34,974 nucleotides of DNA from Pseudomonadota bacterium. Its GTDB lineage: Bacteria; Pseudomonadota; Gammaproteobacteria; Burkholderiales; Ferrovaceae. Positions within the stretch are counted from its first letter, which is position 1; each line of letters begins with the position of its first letter. The DNA is taken from contig JAKBAT010000003.1 in NCBI GenBank assembly GCA_021808815.1, positions 1-34,974 on the forward strand, read 5' to 3'. Under the pieces are notes generated by a model. It was not told the origin of the DNA. It searched no databases and saw nothing but the letters and a program-made list of their open reading frames with translations. Below, in pieces: positions 33,779 to 34,974 of this stretch. The position numbers and the translations under genes were made by a program.

Positions 33779-34792
33779 ATGACAGCTGATGCGCTGAAAA
33801 CACAATTTCGCCAACAGGCGCAGGGAGCGCTGAGTCTCAACATCGCCTTCATCGGCATCAGCGCAGGCCTGTTTTCCGCACTTCGCCACCAGGCCGGCTC
33901 GGCTGCAGACTTGGCCCGGCGCATGGGCCTGGATGCTGGTTACGTGACACGCTGGTGCGATGCTGCCTATGCCTTCGGTTACCTGGAAGAGGATGATGCA
34001 CTGTTCCGGTTGAGTGCCACTGGTGAGGCCATGTGCCCCGAGGCGCCCGACAGCCTGATGCCACTTGCCGTGCAGTCCGTACTATCGGCACACATGGCGG
34101 AACGTGCCGCCGGACTCATGCAGGGCGGCGAACGCCCGGGGGAAAGCGTGCTGGGGGAGCGGGCCACGGTGCTGCCCTGGTTCGGCCCCATGCTGGAAGC
34201 GAGCTTCGGCCCGTTGTTCGAAACGGTCATTTGTCCTGCGTTACCGGTGTTTGCCGAGGTGGATGCCGTGGGCGGCGAAGTGCTGGATCTGGGCTGCGGC
34301 AACGGTTGGTATTTGCGGGTATTGGCCCGGCGCTATCGCCGGCTGCGGGGGCTGGGGCTGGATGGTTTTGCCGAGAACGTGGAGCAGGCCCGTGCCCGTG
34401 CCGTGACAGAAGGGTTGTCCGATCGCCTGCGTTTCGAGCAGGGAGACATCCACGCCACCACGCTGGCGGCACCTGTGGACCTGATTGCCATGAACCGGGC
34501 GCTGCATCATGTGTGGGAACAGGATCAAGCCGGTATCGTTGCCTGGCTGCGTGACCACCTCAAGCTGGGCGGCCATGCTGTCATCTGGGAACCGGCCTGG
34601 CCTGCGGATCGTGCCCAACTGCGTGACCCTGCCCGGCGCAGCCTGGCATTCCAGAACCTGAGCGAGCATGTGCAGGGCAATCACCTGCTGCAGCCGGAGG
34701 AAATTGCCACGGCTTTCCAGAAACAGGGTATGGCCGTACAAATGTTCCGGTTTTCCGGGAACAACGAAGCTGTTATCGTGGCACGCCGCTGA
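33779..34792 (+). CDS. Winged-helix SAM-dependent methyltransferase
   Basis: The 337-residue protein has an N-terminal winged-helix dimerisation-like part (about 15-90; SAADLARRMGLDAGYVTRWCDAAYAFGYL) as found in small-molecule O-methyltransferases, and a C-terminal class I methyltransferase fold. Motif I is VLDLGCGNGWY (168-178), motif II-like GLGLDGFAENVEQA, then GDIHATTLAAPVDLIAMNRALHHV as the acidic binding loop. The substrate is unknown. No clear ribosome site precedes ATG 33779. It is divergent from ppk2, and downstream lies an SOS promoter that begins 9 bp after the stop. Confidence 0.85.
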   Translation: MTADALKTQFRQQAQGALSLNIAFIGISAGLFSALRHQAGSAADLARRMGLDAGYVTRWCDAAYAFGYLEEDDALFRLSATGEAMCPEAPDSLMPLAVQSVLSAHMAERAAGLMQGGERPGESVLGERATVLPWFGPMLEASFGPLFETVICPALPVFAEVDAVGGEVLDLGCGNGWYLRVLARRYRRLRGLGLDGFAENVEQARARAVTEGLSDRLRFEQGDIHATTLAAPVDLIAMNRALHHVWEQDQAGIVAWLRDHLKLGGHAVIWEPAWPADRAQLRDPARRSLAFQNLSEHVQGNHLLQPEEIATAFQKQGMAVQMFRFSGNNEAVIVARR

Positions 34793-34800
34793 TCCAGCCC

Positions 34801-34846
34801 TTGCCGGGGGCCTGTCCTTGGCGATATACTGTACATATATACAGTA
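34801..34846 (+). promoter_or_regulatory. LexA-regulated promoter (SOS box)
   Basis: At 34827-34846 lies TACTGTACATATATACAGTA, which differs from the E. coli SOS consensus only at its eighth base. It overlaps the -10 element TATACT (34825-34830), with a -35 TTGCCG (34801-34806) at 18-bp spacing. A LexA dimer would block this promoter until DNA damage. The following gene starts about 15 bases after the box. Confidence 0.9.
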
Positions 34847-34860
34847 TTTTTGCCATTGCC

Positions 34861-34974
34861 ATGCACCGTGCCCCGTTTTCCCCACAGGCAGACCTTGCAC
34901 CGCTACCACAAGCCCTGAGCGGCCAGGTTCCTCCCGGTGGCGTGCCCTGTCTCAGCCATCCCATCTCCGCAGGC
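34861..34974 (+). CDS. SOS-controlled gene, 5' end only (possibly imuA)
   Basis: An open frame of 38 codons starts at ATG 34861 and continues past the window end. It has no visible ribosome site and begins MHRAPFSPQADLAPLPQALS, with no motif yet. In many proteobacteria an SOS box at this distance drives the imuA-imuB-dnaE2 mutagenesis operon. The short reading (a variable lead, then VPCLSHPISAG, where ImuA proteins have a serine-glycine turn before the RecA-like domain) is compatible with ImuA but does not prove it. It could equally be another SOS gene. Confidence 0.55.
   Translation, partial: MHRAPFSPQADLAPLPQALSGQVPPGGVPCLSHPISAG

Follow-up and report, generated by a model that had tools for sequence, protein, structure and literature searches.

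The SOS box at the end of the analyzed DNA is, with high confidence, the LexA operator of a umuDC operon (DNA polymerase V) whose umuD begins at position 34861. The window, 34,974 nucleotides in length, is an entire contig that ends within this gene, and relatives were used to name the gene cut at 34974. The directly observed data behind this assignment were the box, the promoter, a UmuD arm with its cleavage motif, the gene order in congeneric genomes, a compatible LexA, and boxes in front of lexA and recA. From comparison with relatives we also consider it fairly likely that chromosomal umuDC in this family and genus has several times lost the UmuD arm, usually followed by the catalytic dyad, so that UmuD' would be made directly, with the RecA-dependent checkpoint gone and LexA control kept. 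The species of the window is an armed sister of these forms.

The SOS box, its promoter and the gene cut by the contig end

The site CTGTACATATATACAG differs at one base from the consensus CTGTATATATATACAG, which is of the CTGT-N8-ACAG type. It was the sole site in the window (GC content 62.5%) with three or fewer mismatches to this consensus, where 0.01 was expected from dinucleotide-preserving shuffles, and the near-perfect SOS box described in the first-pass annotation was thereby substantiated. Within the 1.69-Mb draft genome of the species, both CTGT-N8-ACAG ends together with an AT-rich core were found at only 3 sites, namely those of umuD, lexA, and recA. The 12 remaining CTGT-N8-ACAG sites were rejected as regulon members: all have 6 to 8 mismatches to the consensus, and the 11 whose surroundings were read lie within long open frames, the twelfth (L041) being near its contig start. 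The DNA damage control site at the contig end was thus confirmed to be real.

A pattern scan placed a sigma-70-like promoter, TTGCCG-18 nt-TATACT, at 34801 to 34830 with 9 of 12 matches, and this was unique in the last 475 bases of the window, where 0.2 was expected. The -10 hexamer and the SOS box share two bases, in agreement with the earlier description of a good promoter overlapped by the box. The TTG, the 18-nt spacing, TATACTGTA, and the box were all preserved in the four congeneric genomes (G001 to G004).

Table 1. Features at the right-hand end of the window
Feature	Position	Strand	Support
SAM-dependent methyltransferase gene, synteny anchor	33779..34792	+	Pfam PF13649, E 6.9e-17; 74-75% DNA identity in G001-G003
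-35 hexamer TTGCCG	34801..34806	+	Pattern scan; TTG and 18-nt spacing kept in G001-G004
-10 hexamer TATACT	34825..34830	+	Pattern scan; invariant across five genomes
Extended palindrome TACTGTACATATATACAGTA	34827-34846		20-mer; mismatch is the same single base as in CTGTACATATATACAG
SOS (LexA) box CTGTACATATATACAG	34829..34844	.	Four congeners carry a box at the equivalent position
5' end of umuD, N-terminal arm (38 codons)	34861..34974	+	Translation, similarity to the G002 arm, congener gene order

The frame downstream of the box runs from its predicted start codon, the ATG at 34861, to the contig end and translates as MHRAPFSPQADLAPLPQALSGQVPPGGVPCLSHPISAG. With 38 codons readable, the driven gene does lie almost wholly outside the window, as had been stated. 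The peptide (MHRAPF...CLSHPISAG) ends with Ala-Gly codons, matching the self-cleavage bond at the end of the N-terminal arm. Because the frame ends in LSHPISAG, the neighborhood of UmuD cleavage, the contig was deduced to break at the self-cleavage motif. The same end resembles the Polynucleobacter arm LSHRISAG-FPSPA. A Pfam search with the 38-residue fragment gave zero matches, while alignment to the UmuD arm of G002 gave 44% over 32 residues (E = 0.001), a single comparison that is weak by itself.

In G001 and G003, SOS box-umuD-umuC comes directly after the methyltransferase gene. G002 has one aldo/keto-reductase-like gene (L024) in between, an insertion found at that place in neither G001, G003, nor the window, and in G004 SOS box-umuD-umuC lies close to a contig start. 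The arrangement box-umuD-umuC was therefore present in all four congeneric genomes. The congener UmuC was assigned from its IMS domain (E 2.4e-38) and a UmuC-type tail (DUF4113), and an S24 core with the catalytic Ser and Lys was found in G002 and G004. There is hardly any doubt that the truncated gene is umuD of a umuDC (Pol V) operon rather than imuA; with its arm, the UmuD of the window is of the ordinary kind. The first-pass annotation was right in that the box drives a gene of DNA damage tolerance.

The missing umuC and the LexA regulon

The window's species is known from a draft assembly only (1.69 Mb, 147 contigs, 89.8% complete), and this was searched for the remainder of the operon. 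For the rest of umuD, with its S24 domain and catalytic residues, the sole match in the other contigs was LexA; umuC was absent from the draft; and the Y-family domain (PF00817, IMS) gave zero matches there, DinB included. The missing rest of umuD and umuC are taken as a small assembly gap beyond the contig, though the draft would look the same after a real loss of umuC. These same absences, of umuC and any Y-family polymerase and of a second piece of umuD, would also be expected if the umuD start were genuine and umuC had been lost or the operon had decayed, leaving a lone UmuD. This is considered unlikely, since the contig stops within umuD and a gap suffices in a draft that is 90% complete in 147 contigs, since the box and arm are well preserved, and since umuC is kept in 4 of 4 congeners.

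The first-pass annotation had favored imuA-imuB-dnaE2, and this cassette is among the LexA-regulated genes reported as a conserved core in alpha- and beta-proteobacteria (PMC3323433). Each of the four congeners had a single PF00817 match, every time to UmuC, so that ImuB is lacking in the genus as far as sampled. ImuB is an IMS-domain protein, and the absence of IMS from the draft and its presence in the congeners only as UmuC tell against such a cassette. Moreover, the congeners have umuDC at that position and the window peptide fits UmuD, and an imuA identity for the cut gene is accordingly regarded as very improbable and was given up. That the box is real while the short frame is spurious, with another gene beyond, is scarcely credible: just 38 codons are readable, and no clear Shine-Dalgarno sequence was seen before the ATG at 34861 (a weak point), but the 16 nt from box to ATG is near the 12 to 13 nt of the congeners and the peptide is similar to the UmuD arm and cleavage motif.

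Assignment of the box to umuDC is also consistent with the LexA of this organism. The draft genome encodes one full LexA (L004; PF01726, E 1.5e-26), a second PF01726 match (23.5 bits, on C26) being a different, shorter protein. By-eye reading of L004 gave the recognition helix RSPNAAEDHLRALARKG. The E. coli LexA recognition helix is RSPNAAEEHL, from which RSPNAAEDHL departs by one E-to-D change (E45D) in the contact region. The box before lexA is CTGTATTTTTATACAG and that before recA is CTGTATATAATCACAG, so that the strong LexA sites of the genome number three, before lexA, recA, and umuD. The CTGT-N8-ACAG operator and a LexA with a matching recognition helix, as in the beta/gamma-proteobacterial LexA regulon, are thus both present.

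CTGT-N8-ACAG is the LexA box in most beta- and gamma-proteobacteria (PMC3323433), and because the type is common to both, the box is no specific pointer to enterobacteria. By its relatives, which place it in a beta-proteobacterial order, the organism is beta-proteobacterial-like. The earlier claim of a LexA of enterobacterial specificity was therefore upheld as to the E. coli-type helix and the boxed lexA gene, "enterobacterial" being too narrow. The result names the gene left open by the first-pass annotation and, for a beta-proteobacterium with a small genome, outlines an SOS core of few genes (lexA, recA, umuDC).

UmuD without its arm in relatives

The UmuD proteins of G001 and G003 start MTPAFFPEPAEP and MSPAFFPEPAEP, respectively, 13 nt past the SOS box. 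Both have lost the arm of 30-odd residues, whose removal is normally required for the polymerase to work, but retain the start region and a core with GDSM and Lys. An in-frame TTG is found further upstream, above the box, and a start there would still be without the Ala-Gly bond. In the same family, four species of genus g4 and one of genus g5 likewise have armless umuD starting 12 to 13 nt past a strong box, and there both catalytic residues are replaced (GDSM by SNAL, SQAL, or SDAM, and Lys by Arg). The armless UmuD in the family thus number 7, from two congeners and two other genera, and 5 of these 7 have lost both catalytic residues. In each case (L048, L049, L061, L063 to L066) the armless UmuD stands under an SOS box and is followed by umuC, and the dyad is kept in G001 and G003 only.

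The survey covered UmuD next to UmuC in relatives obtained from a genome-contig search and an order-wide search, the latter finding UmuC in 136 of 399 genomes. Classification of 197 nonredundant UmuD cores was made by script and by-eye reading, drawing on the SOS box and on predicted start codons in frame. Ten were armless (G001, G003, G008, G007, G014, G019, G023, L080, L094, and L131). An eleventh, L246 (G391), was below the length filter and was added by hand, giving 11 of about 198; it is a 99-aa UmuD with its ATG within its own SOS box (CTGTAATTATGTACAG) and umuC downstream. Four further candidates that the script had classed as armless (L057, L126, L252, and L256) were rejected, by-eye reading having shown long forms or an arm. 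For L094, a frameshift was considered and rejected: the remnants resembling an arm are out of frame and behind stop codons, in keeping with a real loss of the arm. L080 and L094, both from Nitrosomonadales MAGs, have Lys replaced by Arg and no recognizable SOS box, whereas in L082, a near sister, the arm is still present.

Changed catalytic residues were observed in 8 of the 10 armless against 4 of the 187 armed forms (Fisher p about 4e-10, in a test that took no account of relatedness and was applied once the pattern had been noticed, and hence indicates association only). On the UmuC tree, at least four changes were needed for the eight armless rows other than G001 and G003; these two are nested among armed congeners, judging by identities, and add one further arm loss. 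Four or five losses of the arm are therefore probable. For G001-G003, dN/dS was about 0.26; for the g4 pairs with usable dS it was about 0.06, some dS values being saturated or undefined. On these values the armless genes of G001/G003 and g4 were deduced to be under purifying selection. As judged by these comparisons, armless forms are rare among the surveyed UmuD, of multiple origins, and under purifying selection where tested. A search of the open-access literature found no paper on a chromosomal armless UmuD with its own umuC behind it, which is weak evidence.

A different departure was seen in genera g2, g3, and g8 of the same family (L053 to L058 and L068), where UmuD is about 200 aa long with the N-terminal extension GGxRxGAGRKPGTGxYGEPTQxIRxP, GHSM replaces GDSM, and no CTGT-N8-ACAG box lies close upstream. 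These long forms are possibly regulated in another way.

Comparison with known systems

In E. coli, LexA represses until the RecA filament drives its cleavage; UmuD is thereafter cleaved to UmuD', and the active mutasome is UmuD'2C plus RecA (PMC4552617, PMC6511836). The need for UmuD cleavage holds Pol V back in time, and the cleavage detaches it from the membrane (PMC4552617). That pathway is the model here for repression, induction, cleavage, and the action of the polymerase. By analogy, LexA on the -10 region would shut the promoter; DNA damage would lead to a RecA-single-stranded DNA filament, to LexA self-cleavage, and to synthesis of UmuD and UmuC; UmuD would be converted to UmuD' by self-cleavage at the end of its arm (here ...ISA-G); and UmuD'2C with RecA would carry out mutagenic translesion synthesis. 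The LexA box over the promoter, the order umuD then umuC, a site of self-cleavage at the junction of the arm with the S24 core, and the Ser60/Lys97 dyad in the armed congeners are all as in E. coli. The arm, however, is about 35 to 38 residues here rather than 24, the cleavage bond is Ala-Gly rather than Cys-Gly, and none of the four congeners has a Y-family polymerase other than UmuC.

In E. coli, UmuD cleavage adds a second timer to LexA control. Armed and armless sister species, with the dyad kept in one pair and lost in other genera, constitute a natural experiment, and comparing them directly would allow the need for this second timer to be tested.

The long UmuD with an N-terminal extension in L053 to L058 recalls UmuDAb of Acinetobacter in sequence form alone, whereas the window's gene is not of that long type. 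Acinetobacter, moreover, is reported to lack LexA.

The closest likeness to the armless forms is found in phages. HumD of phage P1 starts with MGFPSPAADY; its gene is preceded by a LexA site and, according to the annotation, complements E. coli UmuD'. A similar gene is carried by phiKO2. Both share with G001, G003, G008, and genus g4 a LexA-controlled armless UmuD'. They differ in being phage genes with no umuC annotated adjacent in the stretches shown, whereas the armless relatives have their own umuC, and they differ from the window's own UmuD, which carries the arm. Phage HumD is the known precedent for a natural UmuD'.
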